Position numbers and translations under genes: made by a program | Shown: positions 17,479 through 34,802 of the stretch, piece after piece | Position numbering within the stretch: position 1 is the stretch's first letter | Layout: every line of letters begins with the position of its first letter | The notes under the pieces: generated by a model | Database searches by the model: none | Told to the model about the DNA's origin: nothing | What the model saw: only the letters and a program-made list of their open reading frames with translations | Assembly: GCA_900696645.1 (NCBI GenBank) | Contig: CAADGV010000005.1 | Span: 1 to 64,000, forward strand | Length of the DNA: 64,000 nucleotides | Source of the DNA: an uncultured Chlorobiota bacterium | Lineage (GTDB): Bacteria > Bacteroidota > Ignavibacteria > UBA10030 > UBA6906 | Direction of reading: 5' to 3'

Positions 17479-20094
17479 ATGTCCACCCCCCTCATGAAAC
17501 AATACGCTCAGGTGAAGGCGAAGTATCCCGACACGATACTTCTCTTTCGCATGGGGGATTTCTTCGAGACGTTCGAAGAGGATGCGAAGATCACTTCAAA
17601 GGTGTTGGGCATTACGCTGACGAAGCGGGGAAACGGCGCAGCGGGGGAAATCCCGCTTGCAGGGTTTCCGCATCACGCGCTCGAATCGTACATGCCGAAA
17701 CTGCTGCGGGCGGGCTACCGCGTTGCCGTCTGCGAGCAGCTTGAGGATCCGAAGTTCGCAAAAGGAATCGTGAAGCGTGACGTTATCGAGGTCGTCACCC
17801 CCGGCGTCGCCTACTCCGACAAAGTTCTCGAACTCAAACAAAACAATTATCTCGCCGCCATCTCACTCCCTTCCGCTGTCGCAACCGGCACGGACACCGT
17901 CGGCTTTGCGTTCGTTGACGTGACGACGGCGGAGTTCAACGTGAGTGAGTTTCCGCCAAAGCAACTTGTCGAGCAGATTGCCGCCGTCTCTCCCTCGGAA
18001 ATTCTTGTGCAGAAACGGGATCTCGCTTCGCTGCAAGAGATGCTGAAAGATCATTACAAAGGAATCTTCACGAAGATCGAAGATTGGATTTTCAATTTCG
18101 ATTACGGTTACGAACAGCTCGTCTCGCAGTTCAACACGCAGTCGCTGAAAGGATTTGGTGTTGAAGAGATGAAGCAGGGCGTTGTTGCCGCCGGCGCGGT
18201 GATGAACTACTTGCAGGAGACGCAAAAAGCCAATCTCCATCACATCAAATCCATCCGCCGTCACGATGTCGGCGAGTACATCATCCTCGACCCGTCGACG
18301 AAGCGGAACCTCGAAATCACTTCCTCGATTGCCGGCTCGAACGAAGGGACGCTCTTCTCCGTCCTCGACAAAACCCAAACGCCGATGGGTGGAAGAATGC
18401 TGAAGCGGTGGATCAATCAGCCGTTGAACAAGTTAGAGGCGATACGGCAGAGGTTGGGGGCGGTGGAAGAACTGGTGAAGAAGTCAGATGTCAGAAGTCA
18501 GACGTCGGAGATTCTGTCACGGATTGGGGATTTAGAACGGCTGAACACAAAGATCTGTACGGGCCGCGCGACGCCGCGGGATGTGATTGCTCTGAAGTTC
18601 ATCCTGATTGAAATCAGTAATCTGAAATCCGTAATCAGTTCTGCCTCTACCGAAACACTGACGGCGATACACTCCCGTCTCCAGCCTCTCCCCGACATCA
18701 TCTCGCTGATTGAGACCGGCCTCGAGCCCGACCCGCCGATGGCGCTTGTTGACGGCGGCGTGATCAGGAAAGGCTTCAATGGCGAATTGGACGAACTGCG
18801 CAATCTCGCGTTCAGCGGCAAGACGTGGATTGCGGAGTTGCAGAAAACCGAGCGTGAACGAACGGGCATCCCGTCGCTGAAGGTCGGCTTCAACAATGTG
18901 TTCGGCTACTATATTGAAATCACCAAAACGCACAAGGATAAAGTCCCCCCCAACTATGTCCGCAAGCAAACGATTGCGACAGGCGAGCGGTTCATCACGC
19001 CCGAACTGAAGGAGTATGAAGATAAGATTCTCCATGCCGAAGAGAAAATCCTCGCGCTTGAAACAAAACTCTTCAACGAACTCCGTCTGACTATCGCTGA
19101 GCATGCAACAACCATTCAGACGAATGCACAGATGATCGCGGCGCTGGATTGCTTTGTTGCGCTCGCTTCGGCGGCGGTGGAGTACGAGTATTGCTGCCCG
19201 GAAGTGAACGACTCCGCCATGCTGCATATTACCGACGGACGGCATCCCGTTATCGAGCGGCTGCTGCCGCCTGGGGACAAGTACACGCCGAATGACGTTT
19301 TGCTTGATACTGAATCGAATCAGATTCTGATCATCACCGGCCCGAACATGAGCGGGAAGTCAAGTTATCTGCGTATGACGGGATTGACTGTGCTGCTGGC
19401 GCAGATCGGAAGTTTCGTTCCGGCAAAAAAGGCTGTCGTCGGGTTGGTGGATAAGATTTACACCCGCGTGGGGGCAAGCGACAACATTGCATCAGGGGAA
19501 AGTACGTTTCTTGTGGAGATGCACGAGGCGGCGCATATCGTCAACACGGCGACGAAGCGAAGTCTGATTCTGTTGGATGAAGTCGGACGCGGCACAAGCA
19601 CGTTCGACGGCATCAGCATCGCGTGGTCGCTCACTGAGTACCTGCACCAGCGCGTCGGCGCACGCACGCTTTTCGCAACGCATTACCATGAACTGAACGA
19701 GCTTGCCGATCTGTTTCCCCGCATCAAGAACTACAAAGTGGAAGTCCGCGAATACGGCGACAAAGTCGTCTTCCTGCACAAAGTCACCCCCGGCTTCGCC
19801 GATCACTCGTACGGCATACAAGTCGCGCAAATGGCGGGATTACCGGAGGAAGTGACGGAGCGGGCGAAGAAGATACTAAAGAATTTGGAAGGGTCGGAGT
19901 TGAGTGTGCACACGGACGGGGGACTGAAGACGGAGGACCCGAAGAAACGAGGCCGCGTGACGCCTGAAGTGCAGATGACGTTGTTTGAGATGAAAGACGA
20001 CGCGTTGCGTGAGGAATTGAAGAAAATCGATGTTGAGAAGATGACGCCGTTGGAGGCGTTGCAGAAACTGGCGGAGTTGAAGAAAAAATTCTAG
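17479..20094 (+). CDS. mutS: DNA mismatch repair ATPase MutS
   Basis: This 871-residue MutS has the mismatch-binding Phe-x-Glu near the N terminus (LLFRMGDFFETFEEDA), then connector, lever and clamp domains (ERTGIPSLKVGFNNVFGYYI). The ATPase has Walker A GPNMSGKSSYLRM, Walker B SLILLDEVGRGTSTFDG and the following FATHYHELNEL. The C terminus (VEKMTPLEALQKLAELKKKF) is the usual MutS end. Two short stretches around 18480-18520 (KKSDVRSQTSEIL) and 18610-18645 (EISNLKSVISS) look like small repeat-derived inserts. There is no clear Shine-Dalgarno; an alternative start is Met at 17494. Confidence 0.97.
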   Translation: MSTPLMKQYAQVKAKYPDTILLFRMGDFFETFEEDAKITSKVLGITLTKRGNGAAGEIPLAGFPHHALESYMPKLLRAGYRVAVCEQLEDPKFAKGIVKRDVIEVVTPGVAYSDKVLELKQNNYLAAISLPSAVATGTDTVGFAFVDVTTAEFNVSEFPPKQLVEQIAAVSPSEILVQKRDLASLQEMLKDHYKGIFTKIEDWIFNFDYGYEQLVSQFNTQSLKGFGVEEMKQGVVAAGAVMNYLQETQKANLHHIKSIRRHDVGEYIILDPSTKRNLEITSSIAGSNEGTLFSVLDKTQTPMGGRMLKRWINQPLNKLEAIRQRLGAVEELVKKSDVRSQTSEILSRIGDLERLNTKICTGRATPRDVIALKFILIEISNLKSVISSASTETLTAIHSRLQPLPDIISLIETGLEPDPPMALVDGGVIRKGFNGELDELRNLAFSGKTWIAELQKTERERTGIPSLKVGFNNVFGYYIEITKTHKDKVPPNYVRKQTIATGERFITPELKEYEDKILHAEEKILALETKLFNELRLTIAEHATTIQTNAQMIAALDCFVALASAAVEYEYCCPEVNDSAMLHITDGRHPVIERLLPPGDKYTPNDVLLDTESNQILIITGPNMSGKSSYLRMTGLTVLLAQIGSFVPAKKAVVGLVDKIYTRVGASDNIASGESTFLVEMHEAAHIVNTATKRSLILLDEVGRGTSTFDGISIAWSLTEYLHQRVGARTLFATHYHELNELADLFPRIKNYKVEVREYGDKVVFLHKVTPGFADHSYGIQVAQMAGLPEEVTERAKKILKNLEGSELSVHTDGGLKTEDPKKRGRVTPEVQMTLFEMKDDALREELKKIDVEKMTPLEALQKLAELKKKF

Positions 20095-20162
20095 AACCCA
20101 AACCCCGACGTCACATACACCTTCGCTCCTTCCGTCGAGCCGGCGACGGAAAGATCTCGCCA
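20091..20162 (-). pseudogene. C-terminal tail of a lost outer-membrane protein
   Basis: The minus strand holds an open frame of about 23 codons ending WRDLSVAGSTEGAKVYVTSG, then FGF and TAG at 20091-20093. The TAG overlaps the mutS stop by two bases. Alternating residues and a terminal phenylalanine look like the last strands of a beta-barrel protein. A TGA stops the frame upstream and no start is present. This could be chance; I report it as a possible remnant. Confidence 0.25.
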
Positions 20163-20198
20163 CAACTTTGTTGTTCGTGTTCAGTTCTCCGCGCCTTG

Positions 20199-21053
20199 TT
20201 AGATGTTCAGCAGAATTAATTCGGAGTAAAGGTTATCAATTTGGGAGGGTTTGAGTACCTCAGATTTGAACAGCATGGGATTTGGCAACCGATAGGTGAA
20301 ACCGAGAGAAATCCTTACGGTTTCATCAAATCGTTTGTCAATCATGATTGCGCCGGCTCGATGTTGTTTGCAGAGTTCTTTGGTGATAGGGCCAATTGAT
20401 TCAACAAAGAAGGCAAGATTGCTGATATAGTGTACGTGAGCGAACCATAAGCGCTTCCTCTTGATGCGGGTCGAGATGATGTAGCATTGTTTCCCGTCTT
20501 TTCTGGTCATCAGCAGATGCCGGCATTTGTATCGCCTGTGATCATGCAGGAGACGGAGATGCTTATCGGGCAGTTGAGTCTCAATTTCAGAGATATCCGC
20601 CGTTACACTGCAGCCGGTGTTTACCCTGAAGCCCGGAACAGGAAGCCTCAGGATAGTCTCATCATTGAGGACGGAGAATCCAAGCCGTGTAAACACGTTT
20701 GTCGCAATCGGATTCGGGCTGAGATTCGTCAACGTGCAATTCCGTGTTCTCAAGAAAGCAAGAACAAGAAGGGCGCTTTCATTTCTATATTCAGGTTTTA
20801 CTATCCAGCTTGTTGCGTTGCAAAATCTTCTTATGGTCCCGTCGACTTCGCGTTCGCTGAATATGGTTCCGAGAAATCCGACAATCTTCCCCCCGTCAAC
20901 CAACACATAGCCGCACTGATCATCATCCCCCTTCCAAGAATGGGAAAACAGATTTCTCCAATCATCCTTTGTGATATCGGAATTGTTGAAATCAAGAAGA
21001 AGTTGATGAATCTCCTCGAACATTGAGGCGTTAGCCTTTACAACTTGTGACAA
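20199..21053 (-). CDS. GNAT-like acyltransferase at end of FkbH operon
   Basis: This 284-residue soluble protein has an N-terminal half with the shape of a GNAT acyltransferase: CGYVLVDGGKIVGFLGTIFS (strands 3-4), NATSWIVKPEYRNESALLVL (strand/acyl-CoA loop region) and NPIATNVFTRLGFSVLNDE, the typical 'N..A...Y.k.GF' end. The conserved R/QxxGxG/A loop is weak (PEYRNESALL). The C-terminal half (RHLLMTRKDGKQCYIISTRI ...) may be a second degenerate GNAT fold. It lies 12 bases behind the FkbH-like gene on the same strand, so it probably transfers the acyl group loaded on the operon's carrier protein to an unknown acceptor (inference). GC content looks lower than mutS by eye. Confidence 0.65.
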   Translation of the reverse strand: MSQVVKANASMFEEIHQLLLDFNNSDITKDDWRNLFSHSWKGDDDQCGYVLVDGGKIVGFLGTIFSEREVDGTIRRFCNATSWIVKPEYRNESALLVLAFLRTRNCTLTNLSPNPIATNVFTRLGFSVLNDETILRLPVPGFRVNTGCSVTADISEIETQLPDKHLRLLHDHRRYKCRHLLMTRKDGKQCYIISTRIKRKRLWFAHVHYISNLAFFVESIGPITKELCKQHRAGAIMIDKRFDETVRISLGFTYRLPNPMLFKSEVLKPSQIDNLYSELILLNI

Positions 21054-21065
21054 GAGTCGTTTCCT

Positions 21066-22790
21066 TCAATGGGTCAGGTGAGTGAGCGTCTTCCCGGATG
21101 GCACTGCCGTGCCTTCCTGCAGAACGATGCAGGAAGGTACTTCGTACGGCAGGGAAAGGTCAAATGTGAACAGATTTGTGCGCTCCTCCTGAAACGGGGA
21201 ACGCCTCCAGAATTCGAGACAAGGCTTGTTCTTTTCCGTAGGAACGAATTCCGCCTTCAGTGAGACGAGAGGGACGCGTCGTGCGAAGTTGATGAGAACG
21301 AAGAGCATCGTTTCTTCAATTCTCCTTCCCATGACGCGGCAACTCAACACGAGGTCGGTGATTGTTCCGACCTCACCATCGTGATTCAGGCTGATGATCC
21401 CGGTGATGCCTGCGTCGCCGAATTTGTCGGCCACGCGGAATGCCCACAAATGGCGGTTTTTGTGCGCTATCCAGATATTGAGTTCCTGAAGCGTCATCCG
21501 GCGGGTTGCGTGATTCATCTGGTTGGTTTTGTTGAGAAGCTGTACAACACGCAAGGCGTTTGTCTTGCTGAATTCTTCAACCGTCACGGTAGTTTCAAGC
21601 GTGCGTAACCAATCATCCATCGATGTGATGTTTCGTTGCGATTGGTCGCGTCTTTTCTGTGCAAGATACATCTGTGTCCGTTCAAGATCCTCGGAACTGA
21701 TGCCTGGCACATCAAAGCATCTGAGGTCAAGCAGTGTACTTTGGTACAGCATCTTGTCCTTTGGCCACTCGGGAACGAACACTTCGGGTAGTGCTTCACG
21801 CACACGCGCACGTTCCACGGGATTGTCGTCGATGAAGACCACGGACTCCAAACCCAGGTTGAGTGACGCGGTAAGCTGAACGATGTTGTTGGCCTTGTCT
21901 CCCCAATTGATCCTCCAACCGGCGAAATCGTCAACACGTAGCACCATTTCCGGATGATTCTTGATTGCCTCGAGGGCCACCGACTCTTCGTTCTTGCTGA
22001 CAATGCCAAGGATGATGCCGCGCCGCGTAAGATCTTTCAACGATAGCTGAAAATCAACATAGGCTTCACCAATATGATTGTGCCCCCCGAGATTCAATTG
22101 CTGCCAACCGACGTCACCCACGATTCCGCCCCACAACGTATCATCAAGGTCAACAATGACGAGTTTTCGTGCCAGACCGCGCATTCCTCGCAGTCCGGCC
22201 TTGATATCGCGTGCAGCCTCGCGAAACACGTCGTTGGAGAACGCGATTTTTCCCATGTACCAGAGCTTTGGATTGCATGCGAGTTTTCCTGCAACCTCAA
22301 TCCACCGCTGGGCATTGAGAACAAAAATATTGGAATGCGGTTCGAGTTGTTCCGTTAATCTGAGGTTCATTCGCATGATCGCGTTCGCAGCACCTCCTGC
22401 ATTCTTCATATCGAGCATGCCGTTTCCCCTGATGTACGAAGGGAGTGTCCAACTTGGGACAAATACCGCGTTCGTATGTTCCCCCAAAAATGCCACCGCC
22501 TCAGCGAAAGCGTCCACTTCTGACATAAGAGTCGCTACGGGTGCGGACTGGAAATGCAGAATCTTGGAAAATGCCGGGACGGAAACATCCGGACGCGTCC
22601 AAACCACAGCGAAGTCCGGTTTGGAACTCAGGCTCGGAGCGTCCTGCGGAGTGAGGATCTGGATCAGTTGCCTGATCAGCACAACATGTGTGTGGAGCTT
22701 GGGAATTTCATCGATGTTGTCAAGATAATTAGCCAGAGTTTTTATTGTGAAATCTGAAATCAATAAACCGTGAAGGTTCGTTCTCGTCAT
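21066..22790 (-). CDS. FkbH-like HAD-IIIC phosphatase/acyltransferase
   Basis: This 574-residue protein has three parts. The N-terminal part is an SGNH-like domain (LLISDFTIKTLANYL ... FAVVWTRPD). Residues ~210-350 form a HAD-IIIC phosphatase with DxDxT as KLVIVDLDDTLWGGIVGDVG, IVSKNEE and VVFIDDNPVERARV. The C-terminal part is a GNAT-like domain (LWAFRVADKFGDAGITGIIS ... VMGRRIEETML). FkbH-family enzymes dephosphorylate 1,3-bisphosphoglycerate and load the glyceryl unit onto an acyl carrier protein. The carrier gene lies directly upstream and overlaps this start by 62 bases, which fits that partnership. No polyketide synthase is present, so the product may instead be a glyceryl- or acyl-modified sugar or lipid. 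Confidence 0.88.
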   Translation of the reverse strand: MTRTNLHGLLISDFTIKTLANYLDNIDEIPKLHTHVVLIRQLIQILTPQDAPSLSSKPDFAVVWTRPDVSVPAFSKILHFQSAPVATLMSEVDAFAEAVAFLGEHTNAVFVPSWTLPSYIRGNGMLDMKNAGGAANAIMRMNLRLTEQLEPHSNIFVLNAQRWIEVAGKLACNPKLWYMGKIAFSNDVFREAARDIKAGLRGMRGLARKLVIVDLDDTLWGGIVGDVGWQQLNLGGHNHIGEAYVDFQLSLKDLTRRGIILGIVSKNEESVALEAIKNHPEMVLRVDDFAGWRINWGDKANNIVQLTASLNLGLESVVFIDDNPVERARVREALPEVFVPEWPKDKMLYQSTLLDLRCFDVPGISSEDLERTQMYLAQKRRDQSQRNITSMDDWLRTLETTVTVEEFSKTNALRVVQLLNKTNQMNHATRRMTLQELNIWIAHKNRHLWAFRVADKFGDAGITGIISLNHDGEVGTITDLVLSCRVMGRRIEETMLFVLINFARRVPLVSLKAEFVPTEKNKPCLEFWRRSPFQEERTNLFTFDLSLPYEVPSCIVLQEGTAVPSGKTLTHLTH

Positions 22791-23091
22791 TGCGACTTTC
22801 CCCCAGAAGTAACATCATGTGGTCTGCCAAAGAACTTATTGTGTGGAACGGGCTTCGTTCATCGCCGTATTCCATGTTTTCAGAGAGTGTTATGGGCGTC
22901 CCAAACTCCTGTTCGACTGCTTCTTCGGTTGCCACGATTAGATTGACAAGTCCAAGCGAGTCGAGACTCCCTCCACTTCCCATCAAAACACTATCTGAAT
23001 CCCCCTTGATTCTTTCATCAGGCTTGCGCTGTTCGTTCAGTCGTTCTATCACACCGTAGATCAGCCGAAACACACGATCTCGTTCAATCAT
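22729..23091 (-). CDS. Acyl carrier protein
   Basis: This is a 120-residue carrier protein. The phosphopantetheine serine lies in GSGGSLDSLGLVNLIVATEE (DSL motif). The next helix is EFGTPITLSENMEYGDERSP, then FHTISSLADHMMLLL. This matches carrier proteins found beside FkbH genes ('...SPFRTIGSLADYI'). The start is uncertain. ATG 23091 (MIERDRVF) has AAGG at workable spacing, 23106 (MQGKEM) is also possible, and the frame stays open up to 23299 without a good start. It is the first gene of the three-gene minus-strand operon; its last 20 codons overlap the FkbH start. Confidence 0.85.
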   Translation of the reverse strand: MIERDRVFRLIYGVIERLNEQRKPDERIKGDSDSVLMGSGGSLDSLGLVNLIVATEEAVEQEFGTPITLSENMEYGDERSPFHTISSLADHMMLLLGESRNDENEPSRFIDFRFHNKNSG

Positions 23092-23792
23092 TTCCTTGCC
23101 TTGCATTTTCTGTTCTGTTTCGATCAGATGCGAACGGAGGTCCAACCACACACAACCGAGTCCTGAGAACCTGTATTCGCAAAAACAACGACAATATCCG
23201 TGATTTACAGAGATCGTTCTGTGTTCTTTCGCACAAGAATACCAGTCCCCAAGATCATTGTTGATGTCGTCCGATAAAATGCGGCTCGCCTATTTAATCT
23301 CTACTCCACCAGTTGTGTTGTATGTAGAGTGTCTTTTTCTTCCCCTGTCATACTACGCATGCGTGGTTTCGTCAAATTATCAAAGGATATGAAGTATCCT
23401 CGATGCCTCCGCAGAACGTCTGCAATCACCGCGCATTCCGTCTCACGTAAAACCCTCACCGCGCTTTACCGATACACCAAGCTCCCTCGTCCGGATGTTA
23501 TTTCGCGAAACTTCATGTTCATAACAATAAGTCACCGGCTGAACCCCCGTGAACACAGAATTGTGATTTATGTTCCGAAGAGTCGAATGCAATTGTGAGG
23601 CGCGGGGAAAGGGTTTGTGTTGGAGGGGTGGATCTCTTGTATTTTTCGCACCGATTGTCTGCGTTGCACTCCAACCAAAAAGTGTGTAGAATTCAATCGG
23701 GCTTACAAGTTAACGAACAACGCTTCCCCCCGTTTTTTCCGTGTGCCGCCCTTTCACATTGAACCCGTTGATTCTCATAACACTTCACGAAC
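23092..23792. other. 700-base region with no supported gene
   Basis: This lies between the divergent starts of the carrier-protein operon and gatE. The carrier-protein frame continues open upstream to 23299 but without a convincing start, so part of 23092-23299 might be an N-terminal extension. The rest (23300-23792) contains only short, unconvincing frames. I saw no tRNA, hairpin or repeat. It probably carries promoters for both operons and, given the two unusual modules on each side, may be an old junction. Confidence 0.4.
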
Positions 23793-25706
23793 ATGCACGA
23801 TTTCCTCTTCAAGCCATTTCATGACATGACGGAATCCGACTATGCCGCCGTCGGATTTACTTCCGGTCTTGAAATCCACCAGCAGCTTCTCACATCGAAG
23901 AAGTTATTTTGCCGTTGCCCTGCGGGGCGTTACAGCGACCGCTACGACGCAGAGATTCTGCGGCACATGCGCCCGACGCTGTCGGAATTGGGCGAGTACG
24001 ACGGCACGGCGTTGATGGAATTCAAAACAAAGAAGAACATCATCTACCGGATCAACCGTGATACCGTCTGCACGTACGAGATGGACGACACGCCGCCGTT
24101 TGAGATCAATGAAGAAGCGCTCGACATCGCACTCGGCATCGGCATCATGTACGGCTGCGATCTGGTTGATGAGCTCCATATCGCCCGCAAGCAGTATCTT
24201 GACGGAAGCATTCCGACGGGTTTTCAGCGGACAGCTATCTTCTCTCTTGACGGAAAAATCCCTTTCAAAGGCCGCGACGTACGTGTCGTGCAGATGTCGA
24301 TTGAAGAAGATTCGTGTCGCGAGGTGAGCGATATCGGACATCAACGCGTGTATCTGACGGACCGGCTGGGCATGCCGCTGATTGAAACAGTAACGGGGCC
24401 GGACATGAAAACGCCGTACGAAGTTGCCGAAGTAGCCGAGTTGTGCCGCTGGATGGCGCGCAGCACCGGAAAGGTTCGAACGGGCATCGGCGCGGCGCGG
24501 CAAGATGTGAATGTGAGTGTAACGGGAGGAACCCGAGTAGAAATCAAAGGCGTGCCGCGCATTCCGCATATTCCTTTGCTCACGTACAACGAAGCAATGC
24601 GTCAATGGAATCTGCTGCGTCTGCGCGACGAGCTTCACCGGCGCGACATTACGGCGGATTCATTCCAGGCTTCGACCGAATCCGTTACGAAGCTGCTGCG
24701 GAAAACAAGGTACCTTCCATTGGAGAATGCCCTTGCAAGCGGCATGATTGTCAACTGTGTCGTTCTCCGCGGTTTCCGCGACCTGCTGCGCTGGCAAACG
24801 CAAACCGACACATACTTCTCAAAAGAAATCTCCGACAGAGTTCGTGTCATTGCGTGTCTCACCACGCTTCCCAATATTCTTCACTCCGACAGTCCGAGCG
24901 AATCGGTTTCAACTGCCGAGTGGCAGTCGATCAAAAAGGCCGTCAGTGCAACGGATGACGATACGCTTGTTCTCGTTTGGGGAAGCGAACAGGATGCCGT
25001 AATGGGTGCCAAGGAAATCATTATTCGCGCAAAGGAGGCAACGATCGGCATTCCTTCGGAAACGCGGCAGGCGCTTCGTGACGGCACGAACGGCTTCGAG
25101 CGCATTCTTCCCGGCGCCGACCGGATGTATCCTGATACCGACCTTCCGCCGAAGCGGATTACTGATGAACGGCGCGATCGGATTCGTGCGACCCTGCCAC
25201 TTGATTACTGGAACAGGGGAGATCGCTACCGCAAACTCGGAGTCCCTGAGGATCTTATTCAATCACTTTCTGTCTCCCGATTTGCAGCACTGTTTGAAAC
25301 GCTGATTGCCGGGTTGCAGATTATGCCGAAGCTTGCCGCAACCCTTCTCATTCAGTATCCAAAGAGATTAAAGAGAGAAGGTCTGGATCCGCTGATTTCG
25401 GATGAGATGATGATGAACATCGTGAGAGGGTACAAGGAAGGAAAGATTCCGAAGGACGGGTTGTATTTTTTGCTGAAGAAGGCTGTCCGCAATGGATCAT
25501 ACGGCGATCACCTCTTGCCGCCACCTTGTTCGACAACGGAACTTCAGCAGACGATTCAGAAAGCTGTTGCCGGCCTTGACGGTGTAACCATCCATCATCA
25601 CGACAAACGGCGGGAGATTGTCATGGGTATTGTCATGAACGCGTTGCGGGGGCGGGTCGACGCGACTACCGTTCGCGAACACATCGACCGGGAGGTGTTG
25701 GTATGA
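23793..25706 (+). CDS. gatE: Archaeal-type Glu-tRNA(Gln) amidotransferase subunit E
   Basis: This 637-residue protein resembles archaeal GatE from end to end. The B/E signature is FTSGLEIHQQLLTSKKLFCR (CxC follows) and LSELGEYDGTALMEF. Further motifs are RDTVCTYEMDDTPPFEIN, ARKQYLDGSIPTGFQRTAIF, SIEEDSCRE, DRLGMPLIETVTGPDM and GAARQDVNVSV. A GAD-type insert lies at about 300-440 (ALASGMIVNCVVLRGF...FERILPGADRMYPDTDLPPK), which distinguishes GatE from bacterial GatB. A helical tRNA-binding YqeY-like tail follows. GatE phosphorylates the glutamyl group on misacylated Glu-tRNA(Gln) and amidates it with ammonia made by GatD. Met at 23826 (MTESDY) matches archaeal N termini better than 23793. It overlaps gatD by ATGA. 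Confidence 0.92.
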   Translation: MHDFLFKPFHDMTESDYAAVGFTSGLEIHQQLLTSKKLFCRCPAGRYSDRYDAEILRHMRPTLSELGEYDGTALMEFKTKKNIIYRINRDTVCTYEMDDTPPFEINEEALDIALGIGIMYGCDLVDELHIARKQYLDGSIPTGFQRTAIFSLDGKIPFKGRDVRVVQMSIEEDSCREVSDIGHQRVYLTDRLGMPLIETVTGPDMKTPYEVAEVAELCRWMARSTGKVRTGIGAARQDVNVSVTGGTRVEIKGVPRIPHIPLLTYNEAMRQWNLLRLRDELHRRDITADSFQASTESVTKLLRKTRYLPLENALASGMIVNCVVLRGFRDLLRWQTQTDTYFSKEISDRVRVIACLTTLPNILHSDSPSESVSTAEWQSIKKAVSATDDDTLVLVWGSEQDAVMGAKEIIIRAKEATIGIPSETRQALRDGTNGFERILPGADRMYPDTDLPPKRITDERRDRIRATLPLDYWNRGDRYRKLGVPEDLIQSLSVSRFAALFETLIAGLQIMPKLAATLLIQYPKRLKREGLDPLISDEMMMNIVRGYKEGKIPKDGLYFLLKKAVRNGSYGDHLLPPPCSTTELQQTIQKAVAGLDGVTIHHHDKRREIVMGIVMNALRGRVDATTVREHIDREVLV

Positions 25707-27091
25707 GCTCGAACGACCTGTACAAAGGCTACCGCGGCGAAGCGCTCGACACGCTGAAGAACTTCGATGCGCCCATTTGGAGTGACGTTGAGATAACAAC
25801 TGAAACGGGCACGTTTAAGGGGATCATTCTTCCCCGTTCGGAAACGGCAGATCCTCACCATGTTGTTCTCAAACTGCGTGTCGGGTACAATATTGGAATT
25901 GCGGCAAAGCGGATTCGTTCCATCACCATCTCAGGACGCAAAGAGGCCCACTACAAGATTCCCGAAAAAGAATTTCCCTACGATCCGAAGAAGCCGAACG
26001 TGAAATTGTTGGGAACGGGCGGAACAATTGCAAGCCGGCTCGATTACAGAACGGGCGCCGTGATCCCCGCCTTTTCACCGGGCGAGTTATACGGCTCGGT
26101 ACCGGAGCTTGCCGATATCTGCAATCTCGAAACCGAGAAACTCTACGGTGTGTTCAGCGAGAATATGGGTCCCGAACAATGGAAAGGAACCGCCGAAGCG
26201 ATTGCGCGGGAAATCAAGAAAGGTGCGCACGGCATTGTGATCGGGCACGGCACGGATACGATGCATCACACCGCGGCAATTCTTTCGTTTATGGTTCAGA
26301 ATTCTCCCGTGCCGATTGTGATGGTCGGCTCCCAGCGCTCAAGCGACCGACCTTCATCAGACGCGGCGCTCAATCTTATGCACAGCGTGAAAACAGCGGC
26401 GGAAAGCGACATAGCGGAAGTGATGGTGTGCATGTTCGGCCCAACGTCCGATGAATACGGGTTGCTTCACCGCGGTACTCGCGTGCGCAAGATGCATTCC
26501 AGCTACCGCTCGACATTCCGGACAATCGGCGATATTCCCATTGCGATGGTCGGCAGAGAATTCATCAAACCGTTGCGTCAGGATTACAAACGTCGCCGTT
26601 CAGACACTGATGTTATTCTGAATGCAGCGTTCGAAGAGATGGTAGCCATCGTGTACTACTATCCCAACATGCGGCCCGACATTCTCGACTCGTTAATCGA
26701 CAATAACTACAAAGGAATTATTATTGCGGGAACAGGGCTCGGTCACGTCAACAAGCCGCTATATCCCGCGCTGAAGCGGGCACAGGAGAAAAACATTGCC
26801 GTGTACATGACTGTGCAGACGTTGTGGGGGTACGTGCAGATGTATGTGTACGATACCGGCCGCGATATGATGGATCTTGGTGTTGTACCGACTGCCAACA
26901 TGCTTCCGGAAGTAGCGTACATGAAATTGGGTTGGGCGTTAGGACAGACAAGTGATTTGGAAAAGGTGAAAGAGATCATGCTGACTCCCATTGCCGGCGA
27001 GATCACCGAACGAGAGCCAAGCAACGGCTACCTGATTTTCCAGGGGGGTGTCCCCGAAGTGGAGGAGTTCATATCCAAATACAGGAAATGA
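25703..27091 (+). CDS. gatD: Archaeal-type Glu-tRNA(Gln) amidotransferase subunit D (asparaginase-like)
   Basis: This 462-residue protein has an N-terminal ~90-residue beta domain (DAPIWSDVEITTETGTFKGI) of the kind that precedes the asparaginase fold in archaeal GatD. The amidase core follows with all catalytic segments: LGTGGTIASRLDYRTGAV (first Thr), GHGTDTMHHTA (Thr-Asp), MVGSQRSSDRPSSDAALNLM and the later IIIAGTGLGHVN. GatD releases ammonia from glutamine or asparagine for GatE. The start ATG at 25703 overlaps the gatE stop (ATGA), so the subunits are translationally coupled. No gatA, gatB or gatC gene occurs in the window. Confidence 0.93.
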   Translation: MSSNDLYKGYRGEALDTLKNFDAPIWSDVEITTETGTFKGIILPRSETADPHHVVLKLRVGYNIGIAAKRIRSITISGRKEAHYKIPEKEFPYDPKKPNVKLLGTGGTIASRLDYRTGAVIPAFSPGELYGSVPELADICNLETEKLYGVFSENMGPEQWKGTAEAIAREIKKGAHGIVIGHGTDTMHHTAAILSFMVQNSPVPIVMVGSQRSSDRPSSDAALNLMHSVKTAAESDIAEVMVCMFGPTSDEYGLLHRGTRVRKMHSSYRSTFRTIGDIPIAMVGREFIKPLRQDYKRRRSDTDVILNAAFEEMVAIVYYYPNMRPDILDSLIDNNYKGIIIAGTGLGHVNKPLYPALKRAQEKNIAVYMTVQTLWGYVQMYVYDTGRDMMDLGVVPTANMLPEVAYMKLGWALGQTSDLEKVKEIMLTPIAGEITEREPSNGYLIFQGGVPEVEEFISKYRK

Positions 27092-27110
27092 ACTCCGTTC
27101 ACATCTCATT

Positions 27111-27575
27111 CTACCACAACATCGAAGCGACAACAACAACCAGCACTCCAAGCACAAGATTGACCGACGCCAGCATGTTGAGCTTGTTCTGATATTCTGC
27201 GAAGTCCGCTGACGGCGCTTCGCCCGGTTTCGGAGTTGCCTGGTGCATCCTCGGTACAACATATAATCCGATAGTCAATCCGACAATCAGTACACCGATG
27301 ACGAGAATGTGCTTGATCGTCAGCATCATTCCCAATTCCGAGGATGTGTTAAACATCTCTCCCTCGGGGGTTTTCATGACTCCTGTAATAAGGAGAACGA
27401 TAATACTCCCCCAAGCCACTTTAGAAAATCGCTTTGCAACCAACCCGAAGAGTTTCCCCGCCTGCTGCGGGTCGATGGAGCGCGAGGCGGGTTTAAGAAT
27501 GAAATGCACGAATGAGGCTCCGCCAATCCACACGGCGGTGGCCAGAATATGAAGGACGTTGATGAATGTGTCCAT
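27111..27575 (-). CDS. CopD-like four-helix membrane protein
   Basis: This 154-residue inner-membrane protein has about four transmembrane helices: FINVLHILATAVWIGGASFV, VAWGSIIVLLITGVM, HILVIGVLIVGLTIGLYVV and ASVNLVLGVLVVVVASML. The first helix pattern 'H.la.avWiGg..f..f.l' and the position of His residues match the CopD / DUF2269-like group, which has been linked to copper transport or haem-type membrane proteins; the role here is unknown. ATG 27575 is preferred because AGGAGG lies 7 bases upstream; the GTG at 27584 lies against that site. It converges with gatD. Confidence 0.75.
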   Translation of the reverse strand: MDTFINVLHILATAVWIGGASFVHFILKPASRSIDPQQAGKLFGLVAKRFSKVAWGSIIVLLITGVMKTPEGEMFNTSSELGMMLTIKHILVIGVLIVGLTIGLYVVPRMHQATPKPGEAPSADFAEYQNKLNMLASVNLVLGVLVVVVASMLW

Positions 27576-27713
27576 TAAGTACACCTCCTGCTGTGATTGA
27601 TGATGATATGTGACGCTTCACTGTTATCAGACTCATTTATCCGAATAAGGGTTGTACCACATCCTCTTGAAAATTCTTCCCGGCCAATTGAACGGAAATC
27701 CTTTAATTCTGTT

Positions 27714-28937
27714 TCAAAGCACGCCCCAATTCAACAAAGAAATTCTCACCTTACTGCCTGCAGAAATTCTCTCCTGATCCTTGGGAAAATGAATCAGGCA
27801 ATTTGCCTTTGCCAAACCGCCAACCATATGCGAATCCTGGCCGCGGGCAGGGCGAACGGTGATCTGTCCCGCATCGTCTGTTGAGAGAATTCCCCTGACA
27901 AATTCCATTCTGCCTGCCTTCTTTCGTAGATCGTGAGTGAGAATTGCCGGTAGCGTCAGCGGTGCAACGCTGCTCATTCCCATCATGCGAAGTATTGCCG
28001 GCTTGATCAGAAGCTGGAAGCCCAGTTGCGCCGCAACCGGATTTCCCGGCAAACCGAATATCAAGACCTTCTTCTTTGTTCCGAAATAGATCGGCTTCCC
28101 AGGTTTGATTGCGATTCTCCAGAAGACGCTTTTCACGTTGAGTTCAGCCAATACATCTTTCACGAAATCGCTTGACCCGACAGAAACCCCTCCTGATGAA
28201 AGAACAACATCGGAATCCGTGAGTACTTTGCGGAAGGCTTGCTCGATTTGTCGAGGCGTGTCATGCGTGCGAAATGTCCGGACGGAGTCAATGCCTGTTG
28301 CTTGAAGCGCGGCCACAAGAGCCGGCGTATTCGAGTCGTAGATTTTGCCGCGCCGCAGCCGCGTTCCCGGAGGCTGGAGTTCGTTGCCCGTGACGATGAG
28401 CGCAACGCGAGGCTTTCTGCGCACACGAACGCGTTGTCTGCCGATTATTGCCAACATTGCCACAACCGGCGGGGTGATAAGCGTTCCGCTTTCAAGGACA
28501 ATCTCGCCTTTCTTGAACTCTTCCCCGGCAAATCTGATATTGTCACCTGCATTGGCAGGTGTTGAGAAAGAGACAATATCCTTCCTGATTCTTACTTGTT
28601 CCTGCATGACAACTGCATCAGCTCCGGCGGGGATCTGCGCTCCGGTGAGAATCCTGATGGTTGTTCCCTTATTCAGTTTTAGAATGCGCTTGTCGCCTGC
28701 TGCAAGTGTGCCGGTGAGTCGAAGGCAGGTTTCGTTGCTGTGGGATGATTCTACGAGATCGGACGAGCGTACTGCAAAGCCGTCAACTGCCGAAGCGTCG
28801 AAGCGGGGCAGGGGTGTGCTTGCCCGAATCGATTCCGCCAGAACATATCCTAATGATTTCGAAACGGGGATTTGCGTGACAGAAAGCTTCCGGCAATTGC
28901 AGAATACAAGTTCCTGCGCTTCCTCGAAATCGATCAT
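27714..28937 (-). CDS. moeA: Molybdopterin molybdenumtransferase MoeA
   Basis: This 407-residue MoeA has PLPRFDASAVDGFAVRSSDL (the 'fdxSamDGyA' motif), LTGAQIPAGADAVVMQEQVR, GNELQPPGTRLRRGKIYDSN, the MoCF-binding LSSGGVSVGSSDFVKDVL and FGLPGNPVAAQLGFQLLIKP. MoeA inserts molybdate into adenylylated molybdopterin made by the MogA/MoaB-type domain. That partner domain is encoded just upstream in the MoaC-MoaB fusion, which ends 4 bases before this start. The frame ends VRISLLNWGVL, the usual domain IV finish. Confidence 0.94.
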   Translation of the reverse strand: MIDFEEAQELVFCNCRKLSVTQIPVSKSLGYVLAESIRASTPLPRFDASAVDGFAVRSSDLVESSHSNETCLRLTGTLAAGDKRILKLNKGTTIRILTGAQIPAGADAVVMQEQVRIRKDIVSFSTPANAGDNIRFAGEEFKKGEIVLESGTLITPPVVAMLAIIGRQRVRVRRKPRVALIVTGNELQPPGTRLRRGKIYDSNTPALVAALQATGIDSVRTFRTHDTPRQIEQAFRKVLTDSDVVLSSGGVSVGSSDFVKDVLAELNVKSVFWRIAIKPGKPIYFGTKKKVLIFGLPGNPVAAQLGFQLLIKPAILRMMGMSSVAPLTLPAILTHDLRKKAGRMEFVRGILSTDDAGQITVRPARGQDSHMVGGLAKANCLIHFPKDQERISAGSKVRISLLNWGVL

Positions 28938-28941
28938 CCTT

Positions 28942-29850
28942 TCAGTGCCCCTTTCCCTCGATCATGGCGAAGGCGTGCAGGATTGCCGGGAAGAGGGCAT
29001 CGAGACCATCAGATACTGCGACGGGCGAACCGGGGAGGGAAACAATCAGTGTGTTGGCCCGCAGACCCGAACACGCTCGCGAGAGCATCGCCAACGGAAA
29101 CCGGGCTTGTCCGTACATTCGTATTGCCTCTTCGACACCGGGGGCTTCACGGTCAATCACTTCCCGGATTGCCTCCGGCGTAACATCCCGCGGACCGAGT
29201 CCTGTTCCGCCGGTTGTTAGAACGAGGTTGGCCTGTACGTTGTCGGCATAGTGTTTCAGCTTCTCAACAATCCTTATCTTGTCGTCGGGAATCACAGAAT
29301 AATCGGCGATCTCGAATCCCTCGGTCTTCAACCGTTCAACTATCACGTTTCCCGAACGATCAGCTCCCTTCCCGCTTGCAATCGAATCCGACATCACAAG
29401 GACTGCCGCTTTGAGAATCCTTCCCTGAGGCGTTTGGAAATCAGACTTGCCACCGGATTTCTTCACAAGACGAATCTCGCCGATCGACATCTCCTCGTCA
29501 AGCATCTTCACCATATCGTAGATCGTCAGTGCGGCAACGGACGCTGCCGTAAGAGCCTCCATCTCAACGCCGGTTTTGTAGATGGCTTTCACCGTGGCCG
29601 AGACGTCAATCCGGTTTTCGCCGAGCACATATTCAACTCCAACAAAATCAACCGGAAGAGGATGACAATACGGGATAATATCGCTGGTATGTTTGGCCGC
29701 CTGGATTGCGGCAACTTTTGCAACTTCAAGGGGATTTCCTTTCGGGATTTTGCCTTGACGAATGAGGTCGATTGTTCCGTGGCTGAGATGCAATTGTGCC
29801 GAAGCAACGGCAGTTCTGAGCGTTGTCGTCTTTCGGGAAATATCGCGCAT
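28942..29850 (-). CDS. MoaC-MoaB bifunctional fusion, molybdenum cofactor synthesis
   Basis: This 302-residue fusion has MoaC in residues 1-~145, which makes cyclic pyranopterin phosphate. Its motifs are MRDISRKTTTLRTAVASAQL, KHTSDIIPYCHPLPVDFVGV and YKTGVEMEALTAASVAALTI, with the PYCHPL and GVEMEALT active-site segments. Residues ~147-302 are a MoaB/MogA-type molybdopterin-binding domain (VLVMSDSIASGKGADRSG, LVLTTGGTGLGPRDVTPEAI, LIVSLPGSPVAVSDGLDAL). Such MoaCB fusions occur in several bacterial groups. It forms a two-gene operon with moeA. The pterin-forming MoaA and the MoaD/MoaE synthase are not in this window. Confidence 0.93.
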   Translation of the reverse strand: MRDISRKTTTLRTAVASAQLHLSHGTIDLIRQGKIPKGNPLEVAKVAAIQAAKHTSDIIPYCHPLPVDFVGVEYVLGENRIDVSATVKAIYKTGVEMEALTAASVAALTIYDMVKMLDEEMSIGEIRLVKKSGGKSDFQTPQGRILKAAVLVMSDSIASGKGADRSGNVIVERLKTEGFEIADYSVIPDDKIRIVEKLKHYADNVQANLVLTTGGTGLGPRDVTPEAIREVIDREAPGVEEAIRMYGQARFPLAMLSRACSGLRANTLIVSLPGSPVAVSDGLDALFPAILHAFAMIEGKGH

Positions 29851-30075
29851 GGTAGTCTTCTCTTCGGACGGGAGTATTCTGGTTACGAGTCCAATATAGA
29901 ATTTTTCTGAATCAGAATACCAACAGGTTTTCTGCAGCCTCGTCGCATTGTATGTTGTTTTTGACTGATGTCTTGATATATTCTAAGTGAGCTGTGACCA
30001 GTACAATCCGTTGAACATGCATGCCGGTAGCTGAACCACTTCCTTGGCATTTGAACCGTAACTCGGCAAGCCTTC

Positions 30076-31551
30076 ATGATCAGTTTTGAATATATCCTTC
30101 TGGTGAGTTCGGGCCTGATACTCATCAGTCTGGCGATAGCCAAGATTTCCGACAATTTCGGGGTTCCGACGCTGTTGCTTTTTCTTGTGGTGGGGATGCT
30201 TGCCGGCTCCGAAGGGTTGGGTGGAATTGAGTTCAGCGATGTTGGCCTGGCGCGCTCGATAGGTACTATTGCATTGGTTCTTATCTTGTTCGCCGGCGGT
30301 TTGGATACGAAATGGTCGTCTGTTCGCCCGGTGTTGCGGGAGGCGGGAATTCTTGCAACAGCCGGAGTGTTTACCACGGCATTGCTGGTCGGGGTGTTTG
30401 TTTCGTATGCGTTCGGATTTTCCCTGCTTGAAGGGCTTCTGTTCGGAGCCGTTGTCTCATCAACCGATGCGGCCGCCGTCTTTTCCTTGCTACGATCGCG
30501 GAATGTCAGCTTGCGCGGAAACCTGAAACCGCTGCTGGAGCTCGAGTCGGGAAGCAACGACCCGATGGCAGTGTTCCTGACGCTCGGGCTGATTCAGGTT
30601 CTCACATCTCAAATAGAAACCGCTGCCGACTTCATTATTCTCTTCATCTATCAAATGGGGTTTGGCGCGGTGCTGGGGTTCGGACTTGGCAAAGCAATGG
30701 TCTTCCTGCTGAATCGCTTCAAGTTCTCCTACCAGGGCTTCTATCCTGTTTTTGCACTTGCGTTTGCAGTGTTCATTTTCGGGATCACGGCAGTCATTAA
30801 CGGCAGCGGATTTCTTGCTGTGTACGTTGCCGGCCTTATTGTCGGTAACTCCGAGATCATTCAAAAAAGAAGTCTTCTCAGGTTTTTTGACGGGTTTGCA
30901 TGGTTAAGCCAGGTAGTTATGTTTGTTACGCTGGGTTTGCTTGTGTTTCCGTCTCACGTTGCAAGTGTGGTGGGAATTGGATTGCTGGTTTCCGCCGTGC
31001 TGATGTTTGTTGCCCGGCCGGTCAGCGTGTTCCTTTCTCTTGCATTCTCGAAGTTCCGGTGGAATGAAAAGGCACTTGTTTCATGGGTTGGTTTGCGCGG
31101 AGCCGTGCCGATTATTCTTGCCACGTTTCCACTGCTGGCGGGTCTGCCGAGAGCGGAACTCATGTTCAATCTCGTCTTCTTCATCGTTCTTACATCAACA
31201 GTGTTTCAGGGATGGTCAATTCCGTTGCTTGCACGCATCCTTAACGTGGACGCCCCGCTTGAAAGAACTCCGAACTACCCGCTTGAGTTTGATGCCCCGC
31301 GAGAGTCAAATACTGAACTGGTTGATTTGATGGTTCCGTACAACGCATCAGCAGTCGGAAAGACTATCGTTGAACTGGGCATGCCGCAAGACAGTCTGAT
31401 CGTGTTGATTATCCGCAACGAAGAATTTCTGGTTCCCAGCGGCGGCACTGTGCTGGAATCCGGGGACACTATTCTCGTTCTCGTCAACAAACAGAACCTT
31501 CCGCACATACGCGAATTGCTGGCAGAGCAGCGGGCGAAAGAAGAAGCATAG
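30076..31551 (+). CDS. CvrA/NhaP2-type K+(Na+)/H+ antiporter
   Basis: This 491-residue CPA1 transporter has about 12-13 membrane helices, starting YILLVSSGLILISLAIAKIS. The ion-exchange motif is ELESGSNDPMAVFLTLGL (Asn-Asp pair), and VVSSTDAAAVFSLLRS precedes it. After helix 13 a cytoplasmic TrkA-C (RCK-C) domain covers residues ~415-485 (DLMVPYNASAVGKTIVELGM ... LESGDTILVLVNKQNL), the layout of NhaP2/CvrA. It exchanges K+ or Na+ for protons to regulate cell volume and pH. It stands alone, 225 bases divergent from the moaCB operon and 245 bases before the pilus locus. Confidence 0.9.
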   Translation: MISFEYILLVSSGLILISLAIAKISDNFGVPTLLLFLVVGMLAGSEGLGGIEFSDVGLARSIGTIALVLILFAGGLDTKWSSVRPVLREAGILATAGVFTTALLVGVFVSYAFGFSLLEGLLFGAVVSSTDAAAVFSLLRSRNVSLRGNLKPLLELESGSNDPMAVFLTLGLIQVLTSQIETAADFIILFIYQMGFGAVLGFGLGKAMVFLLNRFKFSYQGFYPVFALAFAVFIFGITAVINGSGFLAVYVAGLIVGNSEIIQKRSLLRFFDGFAWLSQVVMFVTLGLLVFPSHVASVVGIGLLVSAVLMFVARPVSVFLSLAFSKFRWNEKALVSWVGLRGAVPIILATFPLLAGLPRAELMFNLVFFIVLTSTVFQGWSIPLLARILNVDAPLERTPNYPLEFDAPRESNTELVDLMVPYNASAVGKTIVELGMPQDSLIVLIIRNEEFLVPSGGTVLESGDTILVLVNKQNLPHIRELLAEQRAKEEA

Positions 31552-31796
31552 AACGTTCCGCCGTGCAGCTGTGCCGCAACCCCCGGAAGCATGAGTCCTC
31601 TTTGCTTCCCGCGTACACTGAATCATGTATGCTGTCGTCGGTGACGCCTTTTCCCTCACACCTTCCTTTGTAAGATTTTCAAACGTGCAGTAGTTTTTTC
31701 TTCCCTTTCATTCTCAATTCCGTTTTCCACGCCCTTTCGCCTTCGGGATTTTTTGGCGTAACCTTTGTCTCAACTAAAACCAATTGTTACATCCGG

Positions 31797-32207
31797 ATGA
31801 AAACTCAGAATGAACCCAAAGGAGCCATGAAAGTACTTCTTGCTGATGATAACGATGATTTCCTGCTCGTGATGGAGGAGTTGATAAAGGGGCAAGGGCA
31901 TACCTTGTTGATTGCACGAGACGGAAAGCAAGCGCGTGAGTTTCTTGAAGAAGAATCGGTTGATGTCATCATCTCCGATATCTTCATGCCGACGTTGGAT
32001 GGAATACGGTTTCACAGCTATGTTCGGGAGTTGATGGGAGATAGAAAAGTCCCGTTCATTTTCATGTCAGGGTACGACGACCCCTATACGCAGGAAGCGA
32101 TAGAGGATTCCTCAATAGATTTCTTTATCAGCAAGTTGACGCCCATCAGCAAGGTCATCGAGGTGCTCGATCAGATCCAATCATCAATAACTAACGTTGA
32201 AAACTGA
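31797..32207 (+). CDS. Single-domain response regulator (receiver only)
   Basis: This 136-residue CheY-like receiver has acidic residues LLADDNDD, phospho-acceptor Asp in VIISDIFMPTLDG, Ser in FIFMSGYDD and Lys in FFISKLTPI. There is no output domain. The start at 31797 gives MKTQNEPKGAMKVLL; Met at 31827 (MKVLLADDN) fits the family better but its AAAGGAG lies only 2 bases away. The stop overlaps the start of pilB-1 by one base (TGATG), so it is the first gene of the pilus locus and probably controls pilus assembly or the PilB ATPase (inference). No histidine kinase is nearby. Confidence 0.88.
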   Translation: MKTQNEPKGAMKVLLADDNDDFLLVMEELIKGQGHTLLIARDGKQAREFLEEESVDVIISDIFMPTLDGIRFHSYVRELMGDRKVPFIFMSGYDDPYTQEAIEDSSIDFFISKLTPISKVIEVLDQIQSSITNVEN

Positions 32208-34042
32208 TGGCCTTACCGGATCAGAACACATATAAGGAGAATAGTGCAGGCGGTGTTGCTCCTGTCAAGCGTCGCTACGCCTCGGCGTTTCTTGAGCATC
32301 TCGTTCGGAACCGGATCATTACAGAGAAGATTGCGGGAGATGTATCCGATCACATCCAGGAACAAAAAGGAAACGAAAAACGCCGCATAATTGATATTCT
32401 TGCGGAAGAGTATGAGGTTTCCAAGGATGTGTTGGCGCGGGAACTTGCGCAGTTCTACTCGTTCCGGATCATTGACAGCAAAGAAAGAAGTCTGCGAAGG
32501 CTCGACAATCAGACTATCCTGAAACTGGTTGAAGCCCTGGCGCCGCCAGCGTATCGTGTTGTTATGAGGCACAAAGTGCTTCCCTTCGAAACAGCAGAAG
32601 GCCAGCCGGACAAGCTGTTGGTAGTGACCCCCAATCCGACAGACAGGGAGGTGAGCGAGGCTGCCCGTGCTTTTCCGTACGCCAAGCACGAAATCTGCTA
32701 TATGAAGGAGGTAGATTGGGATGAATTTTGGCAACAAGTATCACACTCAAAGAACACAACATCGCCGGGAGCAACCTCGGCCGGCAACGGGATGTTCGAG
32801 GAGAATGATTCGGAGCTCGATAGCGCCCTCGAACGCGAAATCGACAGCAGCCAACTCATCAATCTGGTGAACAACATATTCACCGATGCCGTACGTGTCG
32901 GGGCGAGCGACATTCATATTGTGCCAAAGGGATCCCGCAAAACCGAAATCAGCTTCCGCATCGACGGGGAGCTTACAACATGGTACACAATTGAGGACAC
33001 CCGGGCAGAGGCAGTTGTTGCCGTTGTAAAGGGACGCGGCCTCGGCCTTGACCGTTTTGAGAGAATGGCCGCCCAGGACGGCCAGGCCCAAAAGGTGGTA
33101 GACGATCAGTTAATTCGCTTCCGTATGTCTGTTCTTCCCATTATTTCCAAGGAAATGGCCGGGAAGTTCGAATCTGTTGTTATCCGGATTCTGAGAGATG
33201 CTCATGCCTCGGTTTCACTTGAATCCATCGGGTTAGACCCGTACTCGCTCGAGATGTTTCGCGAAGCAATCAACAAGCCGCACGGCATTGTCATTCTCAC
33301 CGGGCCTACGGGCAGCGGAAAAAGCACGACACTTGTCGCGGCTCTCCGGTCCGTGATGAATCCGTCCGTCTGCACCATAACGGTGGAAGATCCGGTAGAG
33401 TACTTGATTGAAGGCGCACGCCAAGTGAAGCTCAATCACAAACTTTCGTTCGACGACGCCATTCGCGCCATTCTCCGTCACGACCCCGATATCATCATGG
33501 TGGGTGAAATTCGCGATCGTGCGACGGCGGATATCGCCATCAAATTGGCAAATACCGGCCACCTGACTTTTTCCACACTGCACACCAACGATGCGGCCAG
33601 CGTTGTTTCTCGACTATTCAAGATCGGTGTTGAACCGTTTTTGATTGCACAAGCGCTGAACATTGTTGTTGCGCAGCGCCTTGTCCGAAAACTATGCGAC
33701 AAATGCAAGCGCCCGGTAAACAAGCGCGAGTTGAATCACAGTATGCTCGTGAAGTATGGATTTGATGAGGCGGAAATACCGAATCTGGAATTCTACGATC
33801 CGGTCGGCTGCCCGCAGTGCGTTGGCGGATTCAAAGGACGCAGAGCCATACACGAAACCCTGTATATCTCCCCGGAAATCCGGGAGATCATCATAGACAG
33901 CGGTGAAAAAATCGATTTGGAAGCAATTCAGCATGCTGCAATCAAACACGGTATGCGAACATTGCGGCAATCCGGATTAGCACTGGCGAAACAGGGCGTG
34001 AGCAGTATCGATGAAGTTGTAAGCGCAACAACGCGGGATTGA
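32207..34042 (+). CDS. pilB: Type IV pilus assembly ATPase PilB (first copy)
   Basis: This 611-residue GspE/PilB-family hexameric ATPase has an N-terminal MshEN-type domain (ILAEEYEVSKDVLARELAQF). The GspE-type core has Walker A GPTGSGKSTTLVAALRS, the Asp box TVEDPVEYLI, Walker B DIIMVGEIRDRATADIAIKL and the His box LTFSTLHTNDA. A tetra-cysteine zinc site CDKCKRPVN...CPQC is seen in extension ATPases but not PilT. It powers pilin polymerisation at the inner membrane together with PilC. A closely similar second PilB follows 2.8 kb downstream. The start overlaps the receiver gene's stop. Confidence 0.93.
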   Translation: MALPDQNTYKENSAGGVAPVKRRYASAFLEHLVRNRIITEKIAGDVSDHIQEQKGNEKRRIIDILAEEYEVSKDVLARELAQFYSFRIIDSKERSLRRLDNQTILKLVEALAPPAYRVVMRHKVLPFETAEGQPDKLLVVTPNPTDREVSEAARAFPYAKHEICYMKEVDWDEFWQQVSHSKNTTSPGATSAGNGMFEENDSELDSALEREIDSSQLINLVNNIFTDAVRVGASDIHIVPKGSRKTEISFRIDGELTTWYTIEDTRAEAVVAVVKGRGLGLDRFERMAAQDGQAQKVVDDQLIRFRMSVLPIISKEMAGKFESVVIRILRDAHASVSLESIGLDPYSLEMFREAINKPHGIVILTGPTGSGKSTTLVAALRSVMNPSVCTITVEDPVEYLIEGARQVKLNHKLSFDDAIRAILRHDPDIIMVGEIRDRATADIAIKLANTGHLTFSTLHTNDAASVVSRLFKIGVEPFLIAQALNIVVAQRLVRKLCDKCKRPVNKRELNHSMLVKYGFDEAEIPNLEFYDPVGCPQCVGGFKGRRAIHETLYISPEIREIIIDSGEKIDLEAIQHAAIKHGMRTLRQSGLALAKQGVSSIDEVVSATTRD

Positions 34043-34179
34043 AAGTTTGTAATGGAAGAACTGACTCAAGAGAAGTCAAAATTTCCTCATGCTGCTGTGA
34101 GATGATGGCGTTGCATAGTGTTTTGGGGCGAATTGTCATGATGGAATCCTGGCATAGCCATTGAATGAACCATAGTCAA

Positions 34180-34262
34180 CAGAACAGAAAAGAAAAAACC
34201 AGAAGCAAATTTTCAAACCAACAACCACAAACCACAACTAACAATCAAAGGGGAGATATACC
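34180..34262 (+). promoter_or_regulatory. Long G-poor leader with strong ribosome site before pilin-1
   Basis: The 220-base gap after pilB-1 ends in ~70 bases made almost only of A and C with few G (CAACAACCACAAACCACAAC region). AAAGGGGAG follows, 8 bases before ATG 34263. Such unstructured leaders favour very efficient ribosome loading and mRNA stability, as expected for the most abundant protein of the locus. A separate promoter for pilin-1 within 34043-34180 is likely but was not pinned down. Confidence 0.55.
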
Positions 34263-34670: not shown

Positions 34671-34685
34671 CGCCTGACATTCTGC

Positions 34686-34707: not shown

Positions 34708-34802
34708 GGGTTGTTTAATAGACGTAACGTTTCATGCGGGCGTACAGGTGAGTTCACACTGGCCGAAGGCGTTCGATAGTACACGAGTAGAAGAGGCTTG
34801 AA

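Follow-up and report, generated by a model that had tools for sequence, protein, structure and literature searches.

The window (a 64,000-nucleotide stretch of a contig from an uncultured bacterium of the class Ignavibacteria) contains two overlapping genes: gatE (23793–25706; + strand; 637 aa), which encodes subunit E of a Glu-tRNA(Gln) amidotransferase of the ‘type 2’ clade (a label that we coined in this analysis), and gatD (25703–27091; + strand; 462 aa), which encodes subunit D, an asparaginase-like glutaminase with a GatD_N domain. The ORF coordinates give an overlap of 4 bases. The protein encoded by gatE scores 527 bits with the NCBIfam GatE model (curated cut-off, 456) and has the GatB/E kinase domain, the GAD insert, and the YqeY-like tail (in Pfam, GatB_N is above its cut-off, and GAD and GatB_Yqey are slightly below theirs); the protein encoded by gatD scores 520 bits with the NCBIfam GatD model (curated cut-off, 310) and has the asparaginase fold (Pfam Asparaginase N and C), the N-terminal GatD_N beta domain (49 bits), and the active-site residues. 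The NCBIfam GatB models score 50–129 bits with the window GatE, far below their cut-offs of 315–680. The nearest PDB relatives by sequence are the GatDE of P. abyssi (1zq1) and M. thermautotrophicus (2d6f, with tRNA-Gln), and these are also the top fold matches of an AlphaFold2 model of the window GatE (mean pLDDT, 82).

In GatD, T108, T184, D185, and K263, which we take to be the Thr-Thr-Asp-Lys glutaminase active site, are invariant in 90 of 90 aligned sequences; in GatE, E27, H29, E171, E172, and E198, presumably the catalytic residues of the kinase site, are kept in 118/118 type-2 and 41/41 classical sequences. The window gatE and gatD are a real, intact, overlapping GatE–GatD pair, as the first-pass annotation described them from the sequence; its CxC motif in GatE is C40 and C42.

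Joint encoding of gatE and gatD, as at the window locus, is not obligatory in archaea. In 70 of 108 loci, gatD follows gatE at a distance of no more than 300 bases, and in the majority of the remaining loci with enough room it follows within 1.1 kb (the exceptions include L096, L118, L120, L125, L127, L133, and L135). In two genomes of one genus (G172, locus L042; G078, locus L053), a gap of ~1.0 kb between gatE and gatD contains a gene for a 289-aa protein.

Integrity and neighborhood of the locus

The arrangement is shared with the independent assembly of a genome of the same genus (G247; locus L058), in which gatDE is followed by the same downstream genes (gatDE–moeA; 83–85% DNA identity); the common blocks are 23661–27105 and 27710–35065 of the window. 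A chimera, a misassembly, or contamination was considered and is ruled out by this shared gene order. The GC content of gatDE resembles that of its surroundings, and the contamination of the assembly is 0.09%. The proposal that an archaeal-kind GatDE resides in a true bacterial contig is borne out by G247, which, as a member of the same genus, also provides the same locus in a related member of the Ignavibacteria. Between the two genomes, dN/dS is 0.081/1.08 (~0.08) for GatE and 0.012/0.94 (~0.01) for GatD; on these ratios, both genes are under strong purifying selection.

Upstream of gatE, genes for GNAT, FkbH-like, and acyl-carrier-like proteins form a cassette on the − strand (20199–23151) that is absent from the G247 locus, where a different gene is found instead (in the window, the differing genes are at ~20.1–23.7 kb). 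Because gatDE–moeA is common to both genomes and the upstream stretch differs, the sequence comparison identifies the FkbH/ACP/GNAT cassette, not gatDE, as the variable insert. The first-pass annotation had suspected an insertion junction here: the gene-poor stretch (23152–23792) is real and the cassette is variable, but a recent insertion that includes gatDE is not supported.

No tRNA genes were found in the whole window, and no believable Rfam families were found in 20000–28000; a mir-137 match at 23162–23253 scores below the gathering threshold and was rejected as chance. The neighborhood comparison identified no conserved partner gene across phyla besides gatD; synteny with genes that we read as PhoH-like, aldehyde dehydrogenase, and glycosylase genes is limited to one family. 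At 59 of the 60 collection loci scanned, no tRNA gene is located near the bacterial gatDE; at the remaining locus, from an unclassified bacterium, a tRNA-Glu(CUC) gene (L105:3747–3823) is directly upstream of gatE.

Two types of GatE and their distribution

We constructed a careful GatE tree with 48 sequences, with which a quick larger tree (78 rows) agrees; for both, the archaeal sampling consists of the Thermoplasmatota and two euryarchaeal reference sequences. The classical archaeal clade (support, 100/100) contains P. abyssi, M. thermautotrophicus, and the classical Thermoplasmatota and excludes the window GatE, which is in the type-2 clade (100/100) with the nonclassical Thermoplasmatota GatE and all of the bacterial GatE; the bacterial sequences are all in one clade (99/96). 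Approximately 15 positions are fixed differently in the two types, including GSNT in the classical and GSIP in the type-2 catalytic domain. Two Thermoplasmatota (G464 and G473; L207–L210) encode a classical GatE, a type-2 GatE, and GlnRS together. The GatDs that accompany type-2 GatE in the Thermoplasmatota G458 and G461 share 71–74% identity with the window GatD (51% with the P. abyssi GatD), and the classical GatD of G473 shares 39% identity with the window GatD; judged by these identities, the history of GatD follows the GatE split.

The shared type-2 clade of bacterial and Thermoplasmatota GatE supports a transfer between domains at some point, as the first-pass annotation suggested. Support for the nesting of the bacteria within archaeal type 2 hinges on one long-branch archaeal row (L217), that is, p-AU is 0.005 with this row and 0.45 without it. 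Transfer between bacterial phyla is likely, because the GatE of G152 is Bacteroidales-like and some Aminicenantes copies are placed among the Ignavibacteria, whose own copies are mostly in a single clade.

GatE exceeds the cut-off in 29 of 395 genomes of the phylum; all 29 belong to the class of the window, the Ignavibacteria, and none of the sampled genomes from the other classes has it. Within the class, the distribution is patchy (~30% of the sampled genomes). Among the 84,980 species genomes of the collection, at least 557 GatE relatives were identified, and the best 80 of these are from the Ignavibacteria, Kapaibacterium, Aminicenantes, Cloacimonadota, Neomarinimicrobiota, Phycisphaerae and other Planctomycetota, Fermentibacteria, Krumholzibacteriota, Gemmatimonadota, Myxococcota, Electryoneota, Bacteroidales, and two Thermoplasmatota. 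GatE of the same clade is found in roughly 12 further bacterial phyla; because they are spread over these phyla, such GatDE genes are not rare among uncultured bacteria. To the question whether GatDE is ordinary in this phylum, the answer is, then, divided: it occurs in ~30% of the genomes sampled within the class and in many other phyla, but not in the sampled genomes of the other classes.

GlnRS, GatCAB, and tRNA-Gln in genomes that encode GatDE

The genome from which the window derives encodes GlnRS (762 bits), GatA (640 bits), GatB (580 bits), AsnRS (508 bits), and one GluRS. Because GlnRS is present, the archaeal physiology, in which GatDE is the sole route to Gln-tRNA and GlnRS is absent, does not apply. 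Of the genes that the first-pass annotation proposed to look for, glnS, gatA, and gatB are present, as is one GluRS gene; of its two suggestions for GatCAB, coexistence agrees with the GatA and GatB in the genome, and replacement is not supported, given the joint presence of GatA, GatB, GlnRS, and AsnRS.

We determined the combinations of routes in a sample of 80 genomes from the class. Among those with GatDE, 20 also have GlnRS and GatB, seven GlnRS, and two GatB; GatDE is the only route in none of the 80. Among those without GatDE, 30 have GlnRS and GatB, 17 GatB only, and four GlnRS only. AsnRS exceeds the cut-off in 76/80. One genome (G004) lacks even a GluRS match, so absences can reflect assembly gaps; the absence of GatB in G113 is possibly a contig-edge effect. 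GlnRS is present in 26/28 genomes with GatDE vs 34/51 without it (Fisher p = 0.012, without correction for shared ancestry; G247, in which glnS is matched only by a short segment within a frame of 135 codons, is scored above as having GlnRS and was omitted from this test). Expressed conversely, in the same ancestry-uncorrected test, GatDE is more common in genomes with GlnRS (26/60) than in those without it (2/19).

The same company is found outside the class. Among 50 collection genomes that encode GatE (mostly non-Ignavibacteria; two are Thermoplasmatota), GlnRS exceeds the cut-off in 40, with GlnRS fragments in several of the negative genomes, and GatB does so in only 12. In 50 Thermoplasmatota genomes, GlnRS exceeds the curated cut-off in 20 (L227–L246), that is, in 9/11 with type-2 GatE, in 2/26 with classical GatE only (the type was assigned by bit score alone for eight of these 26, including both with GlnRS, G530 and G544), and in 9/13 with no full GatE. 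These GlnRSs are not stray bacterial DNA, because in G458 the gene (G458:C6:51986–53554; L280) is located on one contig between archaeal-type genes for tRNA-Gln(UUG) and tRNA-Gln(CUG), both with A1:U72, and in G550 GlnRS and a GluRS-like match share a contig.

The tRNA-Gln genes of the window’s own genome have U1:A72 and G73; the archaeal A1:U72 determinant is absent. No extra or dedicated tRNA-Gln is linked to GatDE in the class, that is, genomes with GlnRS have the same tRNA-Gln pair with and without GatDE. The two GlnRS-less class genomes with GatDE (G283 and G310) have a CUG tRNA-Gln similar to that of genomes with GlnRS, and in two with neither (G055 and G043) only the UUG tRNA was seen (a comparison of two vs two genomes, by a pattern search that could miss genes). 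In two Thermoplasmatota, a tRNA-Gln gene is located ~0.1–0.2 kb from gatDE: in G519 (L329), the tRNA gene is at 1962–2037 and gatE starts at ~2154; in G461 (L330), the tRNA gene is at 5271–5342 and gatD is at 3766–5136. Arg358 of GluRS (Thermus numbering) is kept in every sampled genome, including GlnRS-less genomes with a single GluRS; as a marker for GluRS discrimination it was discarded as uninformative, since it is conserved where a non-discriminating GluRS is needed.

Two further features of these tRNAs were observed. The tRNA-Gln-like gene upstream of the type-2 gatE in G519 (L329:1962–2037) has C37 and a mismatched 1–72 pair; it is perhaps a decayed or special tRNA. In class genomes with GlnRS (L294, L297, L299, L307, and others), tRNA-Gln(UUG) has a tRNA-Glu-like body, with the D-arm GTCTAATGGTAGGAC and a short variable loop, and tRNA-Gln(CUG) in the same genomes resembles archaeal/eukaryotic tRNA-Gln; tRNA-Gln may perhaps have two origins within one genome.

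A proposed role beside GlnRS

GatD hydrolyzes an amide donor to release ammonia; GatE uses ATP to activate (phosphorylate) the gamma-carboxyl group of Glu on Glu-tRNA(Gln) and then amidates it. To our knowledge, the known members of the GatDE family act on Glu-tRNA(Gln) only. We propose, with a probability of about one half, that the window pair is an active type-2 GatDE that provides an accessory or repair route for Glu-tRNA(Gln) beside GlnRS. GluRS (or GlnRS) would produce Glu-tRNA(Gln) erroneously or through a side reaction, GatD would free ammonia, and GatE would amidate the stray Glu-tRNA(Gln) to Gln-tRNA(Gln); GlnRS would remain the main supply of Gln-tRNA. With its residues intact and under selection, the predicted enzyme should work, and it is probably not the main route because the same cell has GlnRS. 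The repair would not be obligatory, because GlnRS occurs without either amidotransferase in four genomes of the class. A role in tRNA-Gln metabolism is supported by the tRNA-Gln genes that adjoin gatDE in two Thermoplasmatota and by the CUG tRNA-Gln that is present in G283 and G310 vs not seen in G055 and G043. Two observations count against it: the host tRNA-Gln has U1:A72, and archaeal GatDE reads A1:U72; also, the tRNA-Gln sets are the same with and without GatDE, so no dedicated tRNA partner is apparent.

The U1:A72 pair would be accommodated if type-2 GatDE had changed its substrate to another misacylated tRNA, or to a tRNA-dependent pathway outside bulk translation, and for this reason tolerates or follows GlnRS. 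We regard this as possible, at well under even odds. The close company of type-2 GatDE with GlnRS in two domains, the type-specific positions (including GSNT to GSIP), and the two Thermoplasmatota that hold both types of GatE alongside GlnRS point in this direction; however, no neighbor other than gatD is conserved across phyla, a tRNA-Gln gene adjoins gatDE in two archaea, and most sequences retain the complete GatE domain set, including the tail. Plain redundancy, that is, a non-discriminating GluRS and GatDE (with or without GatCAB) as a full second route beside GlnRS, either of which suffices, is less probable still. The GlnRS-less genomes show that a non-discriminating GluRS can occur in this lineage, and 50/80 class genomes have GatB alongside GlnRS; however, frequent loss would be expected of a fully redundant gene, yet GatD is very strongly constrained, and GatDE tracks the presence, not the absence, of GlnRS. 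That gatDE is a recent, functionless acquisition in the process of being lost would agree with the patchy distribution but is very improbable given the dN/dS ratios, the same locus in G247, and the intact residues in all copies. Archaeal contamination or misassembly, for which no supporting evidence was found, can be dismissed given the 83–85% identity of gatDE–moeA in G247, the local GC, the bacterial closest relatives in the tree, and the low contamination of the assembly.

The accessory route that we favor can be compared with known systems. The window pair resembles the archaeal GatDE (1zq1 and 2d6f) in both subunits, their domain order, and all catalytic residues, and these are its best fold and sequence matches; it differs in the separate clade of its GatE (100/100), ~34% GatE identity, the diagnostic substitutions, and a bacterial host with GlnRS and a U1:A72 tRNA-Gln. 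With bacterial GatCAB it shares the kind of transamidation and, between GatB and GatE, the kinase and YqeY-like domains; however, the window GatE has the GAD insert, the window GatD is an asparaginase-type rather than a GatA-type amidase, and GatA and GatB are encoded separately in the host. Thermus, Deinococcus, and Bdellovibrio are reported to keep GatCAB beside GlnRS and AsnRS (PMC4206432, PMC3927822); an amidotransferase is likewise retained there despite both direct synthetases, but the retained enzyme is GatCAB instead of GatDE. A counterpart with GatDE seems undescribed in the open-licence literature.

In a 2022 review, GatDE is restricted to archaea and all archaea lack GlnRS; archaeal GatDE is described as reading the D-loop and A1:U72 of archaeal tRNA-Gln, and GatDE and archaeal tRNA-Gln are suggested to have co-evolved to exclude GlnRS (PMC9499178). 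Our data contradict both of the first two claims. A survey of GluRS, GlnRS, and gatCAB in 366 bacterial genomes does not include GatDE among the classified enzymes (PMC3927822), and we found no description of the spread of bacterial GatDE in open-licence papers. The identity and distribution of a GatDE clade from bacteria and Thermoplasmatota that lives with GlnRS are well supported. At well under even odds, type-2 GatDE may have evolved into a functionally distinct, tRNA-dependent amidotransferase that acts jointly with GlnRS in bacteria and GlnRS-bearing Thermoplasmatota, for a substrate or quality-control step served by no known amidotransferase. Because type-2 GatDE spans bacterial phyla beside GlnRS, and Thermoplasmatota have GlnRS, two questions can now be tested directly: what leads cells to retain an amidotransferase despite having the direct enzyme, and whether GatDE can read a non-archaeal tRNA-Gln.
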